Positions 1-9,373 of a stretch of DNA of 16,825 nt are shown here, one piece after another. The notes under the pieces were generated by a model, which was given only the letters and a program-made list of their open reading frames with translations, was not told where the DNA came from and did not search any database. The translations under genes and the position numbers were made by a program. Within the stretch, counting starts at the first letter, position 1, and each line of letters begins with the position of its first letter. This stretch comes from Acidobacteriota bacterium (GTDB lineage: Bacteria; Acidobacteriota; Vicinamibacteria; Vicinamibacterales; UBA8438): assembly GCA_012963185.1 (NCBI GenBank), contig DTWD01000467.1:1-16825 (forward strand), in the 5' to 3' direction.

Positions 1-280
1 ATTCAAACGCGGATGGCAAGTTCATACCCTTATCGAACGTCCTCAGCTCAAACAAATGGCCCTTGAGGCCGGTTTCAAACACTGTTCGACGACCGATCTC
101 ACTCCGCACCTTGAACTCAATCGACCGAGGGACCGAGGTCTCTCCGTTCTATCCGGTCTACTGGCCTGGATATCGCTAGATCGGTGCCTTGGACACCTGA
201 CGGGCGGCAGTGCGCTTAACAAATGCTTGAAGCGTGGATGGATTGGCTACGAAGCCACACTGTTTCAACGCATTACATAG
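1..280 (+). CDS. C-terminal part of a class I SAM-dependent methyltransferase (5' end outside window)
   Basis: The reading frame is open from base 2 and stops at the TAG ending at 280, leaving about 92 residues. It contains an 'EAGF' turn, then 'DLTPHLELNRPRDR' and, near the end, a 'GGSALNKCLKRGWIGYE' stretch. That arrangement is typical of the C-terminal cap of class I SAM methyltransferases, where an 'aGF' strand is followed by 'DlTphl..RPRD'. The SAM-binding motif I would lie before the window, so the class is assigned from the tail only. The creatininase gene starts 15 bases after its stop on the same strand, so the two are probably co-transcribed. The substrate cannot be told. It may be a tailoring enzyme of the cluster that follows. 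Confidence 0.6.
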   Translation, partial: FKRGWQVHTLIERPQLKQMALEAGFKHCSTTDLTPHLELNRPRDRGLSVLSGLLAWISLDRCLGHLTGGSALNKCLKRGWIGYEATLFQRIT

Positions 281-295
281 AAGATCTGGTCCCGA

Positions 296-1120
296 ATGCC
301 CATCAGTGACTCAGACGTACGTTACTGGAACTCACCAGCACCGAACGAAGCCAGGTGCAGGGCGCTTAGAGATCCTGTCATCGTGCTTCCGTTAGCCGCA
401 ACCGAACAACACGGGCCACACCTGCCGTTATCAACGGATGTCGATATCGGACTCGGCATACTTAATGAAACCTTTCTCCGACTCGACCGTAGCATCCCGG
501 CGTGGACACTACCGATAGAAACCGTCGGCGCGAGTCTGGAACACGTCCGTTACGATGGAATCACGAGCGTGACTCCAAATGAACTCGTGCAAACAATCTT
601 CAATCACGGCGAACGTCTATCAACCCTCGGAATTCGCCGCCTCGTTATCAGTAATAGTCATGGAGGAAACAGCGCGCCAATCGAATCAGCGGCACTACGC
701 CTACGAGAAGAATGTGAACTGCTAGTGGTCAAAGCGAACTACTACCGGTTTGAACGACCAGTTGATATTGATTTACCAGAGATCGAGTGGCGTCACGGCC
801 TCCACGGTGGCGCGGTGGAAACAGCCATGATGCTCCACCTGCGACAAGAATCCGTCAGAACAGACGCTATCAATACGTTCCCCTCAATTGCAGAAGAACT
901 TGAAACACGCGGCTCACGAATATTGCCAACTGGACCAGCAGCGTTCGCTTGGTTGGCCGGGGACCTTAACCCTCTCGGTGTTGTTGGTGACGCAACTCTC
1001 GCGTCCGAAGAACTAGGCAGGAAACTAATAGCACATTACGCCGCAATCCTCGCAGACATCATCAAAGACGCTTATCACTTTCCAATCGAGAGATTAAATC
1101 AACGGGACCGTAGCAAGTAG
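296..1120 (+). CDS. Creatininase-family metal-dependent amidohydrolase
   Basis: This 274-residue protein is the usual length for the creatininase family. It has the family signature 'PLAATEQHGPHLPLSTDVD' at residues 32-50, with metal-ligand type residues E37, H39 and D48. It also has 'SNSHGGN' with H122 and 'HGGAVETAMM' with E175. Family members are two-metal enzymes that open cyclic or linear amides. They include creatininase, the archaeal formamide hydrolase ArfB of riboflavin/F420 synthesis, and the mycofactocin protein MftE. The adjacent GTP cyclohydrolase II and RibD-type reductase make an ArfB-like role on a GTP-derived pyrimidine the most attractive reading, but this is inference. The ATG at 296 has only a weak purine-rich stretch upstream. 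The stop faces that of ribA with a 14-base gap. Confidence 0.85.
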   Translation: MPISDSDVRYWNSPAPNEARCRALRDPVIVLPLAATEQHGPHLPLSTDVDIGLGILNETFLRLDRSIPAWTLPIETVGASLEHVRYDGITSVTPNELVQTIFNHGERLSTLGIRRLVISNSHGGNSAPIESAALRLREECELLVVKANYYRFERPVDIDLPEIEWRHGLHGGAVETAMMLHLRQESVRTDAINTFPSIAEELETRGSRILPTGPAAFAWLAGDLNPLGVVGDATLASEELGRKLIAHYAAILADIIKDAYHFPIERLNQRDRSK

Positions 1121-1126
1121 ACGTAA

Positions 1127-1158
1127 GCCGGACACTACTTTAGCGACAGTGCACCGGC
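1127..1158. terminator. Imperfect hairpin between convergent creatininase and ribA 3' ends
   Basis: The arms are GCCGG-a-CACT (1127-1136) and AGTG-ca-CCGGC (1148-1158) around an 11-base loop. The hairpin spans the 3' ends of the two converging genes and overlaps the last codons of ribA. Neither side has a clear T-run, so it is not a textbook Rho-independent terminator. It could act as a two-way 3' end structure. Confidence 0.3.
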
Positions 1159-7227: not shown

Positions 7228-7235
7228 GCTCGAGC

Positions 7236-8222
7236 TCAGGGCACGTCGTAGTGCACCAAGTGACACAACGTCTCACTAGGCCCCAAACTCAATTTGGTCA
7301 TTACCGATGGCAGTTCCTCGAAAGCACTTTGCTGATTTATAAGAACATCGAGTCGCTTATCATGCAGTAACTCCAAGGCGAGCGTTAGTCGAGAAATTCT
7401 CGTCCATCGGTTAAGGCGCTCAGGTGGCAGGCGGCCAACCTGACTACTCTTAATCGTTAGACGAGCTGAGTGAAACCGCTCACCAAGCGGCAACGGCACA
7501 TCTTGTGTCCCATACCAACTCGCGTCAACAATGGTGGCTTCCGCGCCAGCTACAGTTAATGAGGCTCGTAACCCTTCAACGGTCCCACTCGAATGCACAA
7601 CCAAATCAGCAGAAGGAAGAGTCGGAACCGCACACTGCCACGCTAAACCAAGTTCCGCCGCGATCGTCTTCCGTGTCTCCAATGGATCGACAACGATGAC
7701 CTCACAACCGGGAATATCCTGACACAACGTGGCTACAAGTAAGCCTACGACGCCAGCACCAATGACCACCACGCGATCACCAACGCAAGGCCTTGCATCC
7801 CAAAGAATATTTACTGCCGTCTCCATATTGGCAGCAAGCACCGCACGTTTCGCAGGAACACCTTCCGGGACGCGTTGAACTGCTTCGGCCTGGACGTAAT
7901 AGAGGTCCTGATGCGGGTACAAGCAGAACACCGCTTTCCCTATGAGTGAAGAAGGACCTTCTTCGACAACGCCCACACTGCTGTACCCATATTTAACCGG
8001 CCCTGGAAACTCGCCATCCTGGAAAGGGGCCCGCATAGATTCGTACATTGAAGGGGGCACCTCTCCACGAAATACAAGTGACTCGGTACCGCGGCTAATC
8101 CCACTAAATACTGTCCTGACAAGCACGTCACCGTCATTTCTGGGACTAAGTCTGACGCGCCGAATTTCTGACTGCCCCGGACTCTTGACCCAGAACTGGC
8201 GTGCGGTATGGTGAGCAGGCAT
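7236..8222 (-). CDS. Zinc-independent medium-chain dehydrogenase/reductase (BchC-like)
   Basis: The MDR fold is shown by the N-terminal 'SGISRGTES' (residues 40-48) and the Rossmann glycine motif 'VVVIGAGVVGLLVATL' (151-166). An acidic residue follows in 'VIVVDP', which favours NAD over NADP. The catalytic-zinc Cys of 'GxCGTD' is replaced and the 'GHE' His-Glu pair reads 'KYGYS' (77-81). There is also no four-Cys structural zinc lobe. This resembles BchC and other zinc-free members. It opens the minus-strand run and lies 22 bases before the PTPS-like gene. The frame extends to GTG 8234, but ATG 8222 avoids more overlap with the divergent gene; neither has a good ribosome site. It probably oxidises or reduces a side-chain hydroxyl or ketone on the cluster's product. 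Confidence 0.78.
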   Translation of the reverse strand: MPAHHTARQFWVKSPGQSEIRRVRLSPRNDGDVLVRTVFSGISRGTESLVFRGEVPPSMYESMRAPFQDGEFPGPVKYGYSSVGVVEEGPSSLIGKAVFCLYPHQDLYYVQAEAVQRVPEGVPAKRAVLAANMETAVNILWDARPCVGDRVVVIGAGVVGLLVATLCQDIPGCEVIVVDPLETRKTIAAELGLAWQCAVPTLPSADLVVHSSGTVEGLRASLTVAGAEATIVDASWYGTQDVPLPLGERFHSARLTIKSSQVGRLPPERLNRWTRISRLTLALELLHDKRLDVLINQQSAFEELPSVMTKLSLGPSETLCHLVHYDVP

Positions 8223-8243
8223 GATCGTAGGCACCCTAGTGCG

Positions 8244-9011
8244 ATGACAGAGTTAACGCAACCCGACACGTTTCCAGAACCACCCTCACACAGGTGGAAA
8301 ATTATGGGCGACCTCGTCGCCGCACTAGCACTAGTAACTGTAACAGCGGTCACCACGTCGTGGTCGCTTGAATTCCAGACTCGCTATCTCATAAATACCC
8401 TCGGTCTTTATCTTTTGGTTGCAACGCTAATATTAATAACCATTCCACGCACTTTGGCCGGACCAGGCCTCGGATATGCAAATCGCGTCACACTTTTTCG
8501 AGCCAGCCTAATTGTGCCCATTGCCGCGATGGTAACGAAACTGGTTCCACTGACTGCCTCTGAAGCCTGGTGGGTTATCGCAGTGTCAACTATCGCCTTG
8601 ATACTCGATGGCGTTGATGGGCGTGTGTCGCGTTATAAACAATGCGAGACTACCTTCGGCGCAAGGTTTGATATGGAACTCGATGCATTCTTCTTACTGG
8701 TTCTATCTGTGCTCGTATGGCACAACGGTAAAACAGGTGCGTGGATCACAGGGATCGGAGTTACTCGGTACTGCTTTCTCATCGCGGCTTTCTTCGGACC
8801 ATGGCTCGGTCGAACACTCCCGGAAAGTCTTCGCCGCAAGATAATTTGCGTGGTTCAGGGTATCGCACTACTCATCTGTCTTGGCCCCATTGTTCCCTCG
8901 GCACTCGCAATCTTCGTTGGCGCGACCGCCCTCTTTCTACTTGTTGTTTCATTTGGAATCGACATCTATTGGCTTGCAAATCACAGAACGACCATCCGAC
9001 CTACCGATTGA
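8244..9011 (+). CDS. CDP-alcohol phosphatidyltransferase family membrane protein
   Basis: With ATG 8244 the protein has 255 residues and about six membrane segments. It carries the family signature with exact spacing: D122-x2-D125-G126-x2-S-R130-x8-G139-x3-D143-x3-D147. One change is Ser129 in place of the usual Ala of 'AR'. 'ANRVTLFRA' (79-87) is also family-like. These enzymes move a phospho-lipid group from a CDP-activated donor to an alcohol, displacing CMP at the inner membrane. Whether it makes an ordinary phospholipid or a special head-group lipid cannot be told. The frame can begin at ATG 8208, which overlaps the divergent dehydrogenase. ATG 8304, preceded by GGA, is another option. 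The stop overlaps the next gene (TGATG). Confidence 0.8.
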   Translation: MTELTQPDTFPEPPSHRWKIMGDLVAALALVTVTAVTTSWSLEFQTRYLINTLGLYLLVATLILITIPRTLAGPGLGYANRVTLFRASLIVPIAAMVTKLVPLTASEAWWVIAVSTIALILDGVDGRVSRYKQCETTFGARFDMELDAFFLLVLSVLVWHNGKTGAWITGIGVTRYCFLIAAFFGPWLGRTLPESLRRKIICVVQGIALLICLGPIVPSALAIFVGATALFLLVVSFGIDIYWLANHRTTIRPTD

Positions 9012-9373
9012 TGCGTTCTCAGAATCGGACCGTCGTGTTTCTTGTCGTCCTCGTTTTAATCTACCTGCAAGGATGTAGTCCAGATTCGCATCTCTCCAAC
9101 ACCAATCTCAACTTTGAAGAACTTCAACACCGGGCAAACACGGGTGATAACAATGCACTCTTTGACTTAGGCGAGCGCTACGCAAATGGACATGGTGTAG
9201 CCAGAGACAATGTTGTGGCCTACATGTGGTACGGACTCGCGACTGAATTGTCGACGACTGAAGAACGTTACCAAGCACAACGGATGCAATTGACCCTCGA
9301 TCGGGAAATGTTTCGACACCAAATCGCCGAAGCCGAACGCCTGGCCACTCTCTGGAAACAGCAATGGCGCTAA
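9011..9373 (+). CDS. Small Sel1-repeat lipoprotein
   Basis: This 120-residue protein begins with a short basic stretch, a hydrophobic core (residues 8-18) and a good lipobox L19-Q20-G21-C22. It should therefore be exported and lipid-anchored. About residues 40-80 form a Sel1-like helical repeat: 'NALFDLGERYANGHGVARDN' followed by 'AYMWYGLA'. Such repeats bind proteins. The start at ATG 9011 shares TGATG with the stop of the CDP-alcohol phosphatidyltransferase, so the two are translationally coupled. A longer open frame runs back to 8741, but it lies inside that gene and lacks the signal peptide at its N-terminus. The function is unknown, possibly an envelope scaffold. The 93 bases from here to the decarboxylase gene contain no clear promoter or terminator. 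Confidence 0.75.
   Translation: MRSQNRTVVFLVVLVLIYLQGCSPDSHLSNTNLNFEELQHRANTGDNNALFDLGERYANGHGVARDNVVAYMWYGLATELSTTEERYQAQRMQLTLDREMFRHQIAEAERLATLWKQQWR

Follow-up and report, generated by a model that had tools for sequence, protein, structure and literature searches.

A conserved gene cluster that probably builds an undescribed, glycosylated ring compound from GTP for the cell envelope

PTPS-IV, a subfamily of COG0720 found as AGeNNT node 62, is described by an FGPAQ signature and by neighbours of families PF00925 and PF01872. Part of the neighbourhood considered here was already noted in 2017; in the accessible portions of these papers the GTP cyclohydrolase of node 62 is named FolE2, and a dehydrogenase, GT4, methyltransferase, CDP-alcohol phosphatidyltransferase (CDP-AP), flippase, LtaS and OpgH go unmentioned for the PTPS-IV neighbourhood (PMC5445326; PMC5041015). 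The accessible main text of the node 62 paper has 0 occurrences of 'cdp' and 'creatinin'. A second described system is the substitution of periplasmic glucans, in which OpgB and OpgE shift phospholipid head groups to glucans made with OpgH; the substituents named in the available part of the source are phosphoglycerol, phosphoethanolamine and succinyl, with no GTP-derived one among them. The riboflavin pathway and the archaeal ArfA/ArfB/ArfC pathway have in common with the locus described here GTP cyclohydrolase (GCH) II or III, a RibD_C-type reductase and a creatininase-fold protein. No description of the whole pathway proposed below was found in the searchable literature.

We analysed a stretch of 16,825 nt from Acidobacteriota bacterium contig DTWD01000467.1 (GCA_012963185.1), here called the window. 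The gene set lies within 1..9373 and consists of the following features.

2..280, plus strand: C-terminal part of a further SAM methyltransferase, truncated at the window edge; accessory, no Pfam match itself
296..1120, plus strand: creatininase-fold amidohydrolase (Crea); PF02633, 177 bits
1135..2247, minus strand, likely start 2244: GTP cyclohydrolase II paralogue (RibA); PF00925, 186 bits
2281..3153, plus strand: RibD_C-type pyrimidine reductase (RibDc); PF01872, 143 bits, residues 81-259
3167..4084, minus strand: LPG_synthase_TM flippase-like membrane protein (Flip); PF03706, 146 bits
4081..4926, minus strand: SAM-dependent methyltransferase (MT) of a cluster-specific subfamily; conservation of A5, Pfam matches all below cut-off
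4923..5705, minus strand: FAH-fold hydrolase; PF01557, 172 bits; not core
5754..6818, minus strand: GT4 glycosyltransferase, core; PF00534, 115 bits
6815..7213 (ORF 6815-7276), minus strand: PTPS-IV protein, core; PF01242, 80 bits
7236..8234, minus strand: BchC-like medium-chain dehydrogenase (ADH), core; no match to the zinc-binding ADH_N
8208..9011, plus strand, true start perhaps further in: CDP-AP; PF01066, 54 bits
about 9011..9373, plus strand: Sel1-repeat putative lipoprotein; PF08238, 23.5 bits, below cut-off; not core

The 4-base overlaps between minus-strand genes (4081-4084, 4923-4926 and 6815-6818) and the two back-to-back pairs, RibA/RibDc and ADH/CDP-AP, which a sequence-only reading of the window had pointed out, were both confirmed. 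The PTPS protein probably starts at 7213 and not at 7276, because most homologues among the matches listed are 132 aa long.

The same reading had proposed that these genes form a set, and their co-occurrence across genomes bears this out. With the PTPS-fold gene as sole bait and its neighbours scored among the tested families, ADH was the nearest upstream tested gene in 88/88 regions and GT4 the nearest downstream one in 85 of 88. Forty PTPS-IV regions drawn evenly from four phyla contained ADH (40/40), GT4 (40/40), MT (36/40), RibDc (27/40, including 0/6 of the Actinomycetota regions), CDP-AP (25/40), RibA (21/40), Flip (21/40) and Crea (16/40). This exceeds chance: 0 of 13 families passed the score threshold in 20 control regions, for which genomes from these draws were used (11 from Pseudomonadota, 5 from Actinomycetota and 4 from Gemmatimonadota, with Acidobacteriota not represented). 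In a set of 80 loci that was partly picked by the FGPAQ motif, the counts were GT4 79/80, MT 74/80, Flip 56/80, RibDc 50/80 and Crea 32/80. RibA, RibDc and Crea are missing locally in many loci and therefore may be served by paralogues, or may not be obligatory. The cluster is real, conserved and present in four bacterial phyla, and the window holds most of it.

Membership had been drawn too widely in two cases. The FAH hydrolase and the putative Sel1 lipoprotein are not core: among ORFs from the 80 loci, phmmer at E <= 1e-3 gave no match to the former, and the latter matched in 1/80 (L002). The FAH gene is an insertion that relatives do not show. Of the two methyltransferases in the sequence-only reading, the second is the edge-cut 2..280; its homologues adjoin the creatininase gene in 3/80 loci (L001, L002, L020), the one in L020 matching Methyltransf_11. 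A grouping in Alphaproteobacteria, mentioned in the sequence-only reading, was indeed seen in Methylosinus and on Neorhizobium and Agrobacterium plasmids. The Neorhizobium plasmid carries an mdoH-ADH-PTPS-GT4-MT run, all on one strand, with RibA, RibDc and CDP-AP all absent nearby.

RibD deaminase, lumazine synthase (RibH) and riboflavin synthase (RibE) are all missing from the window, in which it differs from the riboflavin and Arf pathways. Both outcomes that the sequence-only reading had named as refuting it, homologues failing to co-occur and a lack of other ribA/ribD genes, were ruled out in relatives. In 34 carrier genomes, all from relatives, lumazine synthase was present in 34/34 and riboflavin synthase in 33/34. 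RibD_C gave at least 2 matches in each of the 34 and GTP cyclohydrolase II two or more in 33/34, the sole exception (G024) having no RibA match in its cluster. The cluster is thus not riboflavin synthesis. Spare riboflavin genes lying beside unrelated glycolipid genes would account for the RibA and RibD_C families in the set, but the separate riboflavin genes of the carriers and the invariant linkage to non-flavin genes make this very improbable.

The cluster enzymes have conserved catalytic motifs. RibA has the residues tested for GTP cyclohydrolase II, with C219, C230, C232, Y253 and R259, presumably the three zinc cysteines and the active-site Tyr and Arg, conserved in at least 98% of 47 sequences; its N-terminal domain is degenerate and DHBP-synthase-like (hhalign against DHBPS as the single target, E 2.8e-7 at 93% probability). 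A Pfam search found no deaminase domain in RibDc (2281..3153). In Crea, E37, H39, D48, H122 and E175 are conserved in at least 98% of 33 sequences; identity with ArfB (27 bits, cut-off 180) and with mycofactocin MftE (TIGR03964, 99.6 bits, cut-off 172) was rejected. The GT4 motif is complete, with E261/E269 conserved. The CDP-alcohol phosphotransferase motif, D-x2-D-G-x2-A-R-x8-G-x3-D-x3-D, is likewise complete in CDP-AP (D134, D137, G138, R142, G151, D155 and D159 conserved), the window copy having Ser for Ala.

The PTPS-fold protein is different. Aligned to classical PTPS, it has A, HGA and NY/NF in place of Cys, HGH and DH, and retains a Glu at the position where paralogues of the classical type have a conserved one; we take these four elements to be catalytic in the classical enzymes. 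Its motif is FGPAQ-x-LHGAT, and the drawn sequences found by profile had FGPAQ in 40/40, HGA in 40/40 and HGH in 0/40. Classical PTPS/QueD (PTPS-I, II and III) was rejected, as the Cys (or ExxHGH) motif and the Asp-His pair are missing, and the QueD model gave 36.7 bits against a cut-off of 89.25. The window protein belongs to PTPS-IV, with the FGPAQ signature and both PF00925 and PF01872 neighbours, and it has the PTPS fold but lacks the catalytic residues of the classical enzymes. Its predicted structure (pLDDT 93.7) is nearest in the PDB to 3d7j, SCO6650 of Streptomyces coelicolor (TM 0.97, 60 per cent identity), which shares the motif FGPAQRLHGAT and is labelled an uncharacterized protein in the deposition. 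The crystal paper reportedly found no zinc and no PTPS activity, and gave the pathway as not known.

The accessible text of one paper assigns PTPS-IV to coenzyme F420 biosynthesis on unpublished data (PMC5041015). That PTPS-IV and its neighbours serve F420 agrees with this statement and with CofG scoring over cut-off in 17/34 carriers (15 Actinomycetota, 2 Acidobacteriota). The other 17 (11 from Pseudomonadota, 5 from Gemmatimonadota and 1 from Acidobacteriota) do not fit, because CofG was over cut-off in none of them, and we find this assignment hardly credible for the cluster.

Outside the window, an LtaS-fold protein was found in 25/28 carriers, leaving 3/28 without it, and in 0/41 non-carriers, which were unmatched for genome size (p = 8e-16). 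The search model contained sequences from 13 of the 28 carriers; with these contributors removed the count was 12/15 versus 0/41 (p = 8e-10). Its fold matches include LtaS, LtaP, MCR-1, GacH and BcsG, and sulfamidase, arylsulfatase and carrageenan sulfatases match nearly as well, all at 11-17 per cent identity. The protein is a putative head-group transferase, an activity suggested by a fold that it shares with sulfatases. In addition, the glucan synthase OpgH, identified by MdoH models, adjoins many Gram-negative clusters (9/18 Pseudomonadota and 6/10 Gemmatimonadota regions versus 0/20 controls), and in four genomes (L081-L084) an OpgH::RibA fusion forms a single ORF. OpgG and OpgH occur in part of the relatives; neither lies within the window, which is thus not an OPG cluster. 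The cluster-type CDP-AP was missing genome-wide in 10/16 chosen Pseudomonadota carriers, so the lipid stage is not universal; 7 of these 10 have OpgH beside ADH.

The envelope genes could be read otherwise. The cluster is patchily distributed, its share of the genomes in a phylum being 3.5 to 8.5 per cent, and some copies are plasmid-borne, as might be expected if the product were a GTP-derived antibiotic or signal, soluble or secreted and akin to toxoflavin, roseoflavin or pteridine glycosides, with the envelope genes serving export only. A RibA-like and a RibD-like protein with a methyltransferase also resemble the toxoflavin genes. However, the core is near-invariant in four phyla, a related set occurs in archaea, OpgH is fused to RibA, and CDP-AP, the LtaS-fold protein and OpgH are not known to export small molecules; we consider a secreted product unlikely. 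A redox or light-absorbing membrane cofactor, that is, a lipid-anchored pterin or flavin analogue and not an envelope substituent, is suggested by the BchC-like dehydrogenase, by the cytochrome b gene that L214 and L221 each carry beside RibD, and by ORFs that look b561-like by eye in L023 and L056. Cytochrome b was, however, noticed in few loci and without a systematic count, and the LtaS-fold protein and the glucan synthase would have no obvious role; such a cofactor seems to us rather improbable.

We favour, with somewhat better than even confidence, a pathway from GTP to a glycosylated head group, probably of pterin type, for envelope lipids or glucans. RibA would open GTP to 2,5-diamino-6-ribosylamino-pyrimidinone phosphate, and the RibD_C protein would reduce ribosyl to ribityl; the 2-amino group would be kept, since there is no deaminase domain, and this step would be distinct from the bacterial flavin route. 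The BchC-like dehydrogenase may then oxidise a side-chain hydroxyl to a ketone, with closure onto the 5-amino group to a dihydropterin, a ring suggested by the enzyme families. PTPS-IV could bind the 2-amino-4-oxo ring and, by other means than the catalysis of classical PTPS, assist ring closure or processing of the side chain. After methylation by MT and glycosylation by GT4, CDP-AP would join the ring compound to a lipid phosphate. Outward movement would fall to the flippase-like protein, and an LtaS/OpgB-fold enzyme encoded outside the window would hand the phospho head group on to an acceptor on the outer side; OpgH, with or without OpgG, would supply a glucan in many Gram-negatives. The final product would be a lipid head group and/or a periplasmic glucan substituent. 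Creatininase has no place in this proposed order. The product of the sequence-only reading, a modified pyrimidine- or pterin-like molecule that is glycosylated, perhaps lipid-linked and carried across the membrane, is consistent both with the conserved active sites and with the co-occurring LtaS-fold protein; the product itself is inferred.

Haloarchaea have a related set: in Haloarcula, CDP-AP, GTP cyclohydrolase III, ADH, PTPS and MT stand in a row. Here an unrelated GTP ring-opening enzyme, GTP cyclohydrolase III, is swapped in, and the PTPS is of a different subtype with HSH kept. More tentatively, and at less than even odds, bacteria and haloarchaea may share a second, FolE-independent pterin route, with glycosylated pterin as a new class of head group on envelope lipids and periplasmic glucans; the GTP cyclohydrolase I reaction would be split among GCH II/III, reductase, dehydrogenase and a repurposed PTPS-fold protein. 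If the proposed pathway is true, it would introduce a class of GTP-derived envelope molecules, give PTPS-IV and S. coelicolor SCO6650 a pathway, account for why many carrier genomes have GTP cyclohydrolase II a second time, and pair OpgH, a glucan synthase, with a partner derived from a nucleotide.

Among described systems, periplasmic glucan substitution has OpgH in common with the relatives. The pteridine glycosides, made by Chlorobium CtPGT and cyanobacterial PGT according to the accessible part of the source, have in common with our proposal that a pterin is glycosylated by a glycosyltransferase. The PGT substrate is tetrahydrobiopterin, formed from GTP via FolE, PTPS and sepiapterin reductase, whereas the cluster described here has GCH II/III, a PTPS without the catalytic residues, and membrane genes.

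Gene finding and family models place the cluster between base 2 and about base 9373 of the window, and bear out the gene list and overlaps of the sequence-only reading. The order is the end of a methyltransferase, a creatininase fold, GTP cyclohydrolase II (RibA), a RibD_C reductase, a flippase-like protein and a SAM methyltransferase (MT), followed by an FAH-fold hydrolase, a GT4 glycosyltransferase, a PTPS-fold protein, a BchC-like dehydrogenase (ADH), a CDP-alcohol phosphatidyltransferase (CDP-AP) and a Sel1-like lipoprotein. Among the matches listed, the nearest named relatives of the window PTPS gene are Acidobacteriota; one locus, from an Acidobacteria bacterium (L002), keeps the cluster order of the window without a flippase match, and also has matches to the window's Sel1 and carboxyl-transferase genes. 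No RNA element in the window reached the gathering threshold. The cluster and other features of the window are:

2 to about 9373: the cluster
4923-5705, minus strand: FAH-fold hydrolase between GT4 and MT, with an Rv2993c-like N-terminal domain
9467-13310, plus strand: carboxyl transferase (623 aa, long N-terminal extension), small ORF without Pfam match, biotin carrier and OAD beta, downstream of the cluster; the set looks like a decarboxylase of the biotin-dependent sodium-pump type
13319-15193, minus strand: PQQ-type dehydrogenase, head to head with the next
15291-16823, plus strand: second PQQ-type dehydrogenase, running past the window end

Named genomes were scanned with the PTPS family alone as bait, and the best 80 of 552 loci were kept, many of which end at contig edges. 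They come from Acidobacteriota, Gemmatimonadota, Actinomycetota and the Gamma, Beta and Alpha classes of Proteobacteria. Within these 80, we found ADH and GT4 in 79 each, MT in 74, CDP-AP in 64, the flippase in 56, RibD_C in 50, RibA in 46 and creatininase in 32. Their commonest order is CDP-AP / ADH-PTPS-GT4-MT-flippase, with RibD_C, RibA and creatininase after it in variable arrangement. The family models were built from sequences of these loci. In even draws from four phyla, the PTPS subfamily of the window (PTPS-IV) turned up in 19/299 Pseudomonadota, 17/200 Gemmatimonadota, 7/199 Acidobacteriota and 8/198 Actinomycetota genomes; these counts include the centres. Forty-four drawn carriers were new to our genome list, and 40 regions were taken, several truncated by contig ends (G366, G465, G451 and G754 were left out for a contig edge or partial match). 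The sole overlap with the 80 loci is L184, the same DNA as L053, which lies outside the 48 loci with full flanks. The 40 regions contain ADH (40), GT4 (40), MT (36), RibD_C (27), CDP-AP (25), RibA (21), flippase (21) and creatininase (16), as well as the periplasmic glucan proteins OpgH (15) and OpgG (10), an FkbM-type methyltransferase (14) and an LtaS-like membrane protein (13). Twenty control regions at arbitrary positions in 20 of the drawn carrier genomes, none of them Acidobacteriota, gave no match to any of 13 families. Across the drawn regions and full-flank loci, ADH is the first tested gene upstream of PTPS in 88/88 and GT4 the first one downstream in 85/88. The families, their motifs and this linkage are direct observations, and co-occurrence with a lone bait in four phyla, together with the empty controls, upholds the proposal that the genes form one conserved set. 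The FAH-fold hydrolase and the lipoprotein, which had been counted as members, drop out of the core, with no match and one Sel1 match, respectively, in the best 80 of 552 loci. Our search of open-licence PMC full text returned no description of the whole cluster.

RibA, RibD_C and creatininase are each absent from some loci, and none of the six drawn Actinomycetota regions has RibD_C. Among Actinomycetota loci such as L014, L036, L047 and L075, Micromonospora clusters have RibD_C and no creatininase match, those of Actinomadura and Amycolatopsis have creatininase and no RibD_C match, and three Streptomyces loci (L062, L069, L072) have both. On a Streptomyces plasmid (L216, 8998-9396) a PTPS-IV gene stands alone, the other 12 family models being silent within about 9 kb.

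Riboflavin supply was considered as the role of the cluster and rejected, since carrier genomes have separate riboflavin genes. For this comparison we chose 34 carrier genomes, which correspond to 34 of the 80 loci, for their longer contigs and their spread. All 34 have lumazine synthase, GTP cyclohydrolase II and RibD_C, the last with at least two matches apiece, and 33 have riboflavin synthase. In G009, for example, contig C11 brings together a GTP cyclohydrolase, lumazine synthase, riboflavin synthase and a RibD_C match, and PTPS-IV is on C3. The cluster RibD_C protein gave no match to a deaminase domain. In these carriers, the earlier case against plain riboflavin synthesis holds. PMC5041015 places PTPS-IV in archaeal F420 biosynthesis, citing unpublished data. 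CofG scored above its cut-off in 17 of the 34 carriers (15 Actinomycetota and 2 Acidobacteriota), whereas the other 17 (11 Pseudomonadota, 5 Gemmatimonadota, 1 Acidobacteriota) had no match above it; F420 biosynthesis is therefore excluded as a general role.

The window PTPS protein carries FGPAQ. PMC5445326 gives this motif as the signature of 'PTPS-IV', and already names as its neighbours RibD_C and a GTP cyclohydrolase (PF00925) that it calls FolE2. The predicted structure (pLDDT 93.7) has its nearest PDB match in SCO6650 of S. coelicolor (TM 0.97, 60 per cent identity), a database deposit labelled uncharacterized. Alignment with human and nematode PTPS and with classical paralogues of three carrier genomes showed that the classical Cys is replaced by A, HGH by HGA and DH by NY or NF. 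E119 aligns with the conserved, pterin-binding Glu of classical PTPS. The scan patterns for the 80 loci included FGPAQ, so its conservation there is partly due to selection; the 40 drawn sequences, unlike those pattern-found loci, were found by profile, and have FGPAQ and HGA in 40/40 and HGH in 0/40. Four histidines (H8, H13, H27 and H121) are invariant in 36 aligned PTPS-IV sequences and might form a new site, but only 35 of the 40 drawn sequences have the ESH motif.

RibA retains the zinc cysteines and active-site Tyr of GTP cyclohydrolase II. In its N-terminal domain it resembles a decayed DHBP synthase; the short actinomycete forms lack this domain. The catalytic motif of CDP-AP is complete. 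ADH scores 47.5 bits against the BchC model (cut-off 291), with no ADH_N match. The methyltransferase gave no match in the PDB as a single sequence, and, as a profile, matches to SAM domains only. Assignment of the creatininase as a mycofactocin protein or ArfB was rejected on model scores below the cut-offs.

The strongest sign that GTP ring opening belongs to the pathway comes from Haloarcula plasmids, where CDP-AP, GTP cyclohydrolase III (PF05165, 276 bits), ADH, PTPS and MT form a run. GTP cyclohydrolase III has no known kinship with RibA; one ring-opening enzyme is swapped for an unrelated one within the same set. Against the bacterial cluster models the Haloarcula proteins score 252-254 (ADH), 93-95 (CDP-AP), 41-58 (MT) and 31-36 bits (PTPS). 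Classical PTPS paralogues score 30-62 bits against the cluster PTPS model, the range of the archaeal PTPS, which has ExxHSH in place of LHGAT and is therefore linked by gene order, not by score. In Natrarchaeobaculum, GTP cyclohydrolase III adjoins ADH, with no PTPS match. PAP2-type phosphatase genes lie near the cluster on two Haloarcula plasmids (L218 15025-15603, L219 12095-12649) and in an actinomycete (L075 13776-15416).

OpgH, identified with MdoH models above cut-off, occurs in 9/18 Pseudomonadota, 6/10 Gemmatimonadota, 0/6 Acidobacteriota and 0/6 Actinomycetota drawn regions. It stands head-to-head with ADH in seven of the drawn Pseudomonadota, whose genomes lack the cluster-type CDP-AP altogether (at most 45 bits vs at least 187 bits in possessors). 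That comparison covered 16 genomes of our own choosing, not drawn, of which G314, G251 and G234 also lack it, yet have no local OpgH. Strict replacement of CDP-AP by OpgH was rejected, the exclusion being not significant in the 18 Pseudomonadota regions (p = 0.33). A Neorhizobium conjugative plasmid has the single-strand run mdoH-ADH-PTPS-GT4-MT, and in Methylosinus OB3b mdoH is head-to-head with the ADH-PTPS-GT4-MT genes. Four Gemmatimonadota (L081-L084) encode OpgH and cluster RibA, including its N-terminal domain, as one ORF of 1015-1074 codons; in a fifth (L085) the two are unfused.

Beyond creatininase, many Acidobacteriota and Gemmatimonadota loci have the FkbM-type methyltransferase and the LtaS-like (sulfatase/LtaS-superfamily) protein, whose gene adjoins CDP-AP in Micromonospora, Variovorax and others; its expected place here lies past the edge of the window. 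A genome survey covering 28 of the 34 carriers detected it in 25/28 vs 0/41 same-phyla non-carriers, unmatched for genome size (p = 8e-16). Thirteen of the 28 had contributed sequences to the model; the other 15 gave 12/15 vs 0/41, again unmatched for size (p = 8e-10). In some carriers it is present unlinked to the cluster (e.g. G003, G005, G010, G014, G016, G024, G026). The profile had no match in a sequence search of the PDB. Its predicted structure (pLDDT 86.3) matches LtaP/LtaS, MCR-1, GacH, BcsG and also sulfatases (TM about 0.3-0.56, 11-17 per cent identity); as sulfatases fit too and all values are low, head-group transfer is a putative role. Cytochrome b genes are annotated beside or near the cluster (L221 12984-13517, L214 11525-12082), and ORF u29 of both L023 and L056 is b561-like by eye.

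We propose a pathway in which all substrates are putative. RibA or GTP cyclohydrolase III would open the GTP ring, RibD_C would reduce the ribose and ADH would make a side-chain ketone, the reductase and dehydrogenase jointly replacing the internal rearrangement of GTP cyclohydrolase I. Ring closure would yield a dihydropterin for PTPS-IV to hold or process. MT and GT4 may decorate it, and CDP-AP, the flippase and the LtaS-like protein, with OpgH in many Gram-negatives, may transfer it into the envelope. The scheme assigns no reaction to creatininase. Both late steps have precedents. Glycosylated pterins are known elsewhere; here GT4 would carry out the glycosylation. Phospholipid head groups are known to be moved to periplasmic glucans, in accounts whose excerpts mention no GTP-derived head group, whereas the group transferred here would be derived from GTP.
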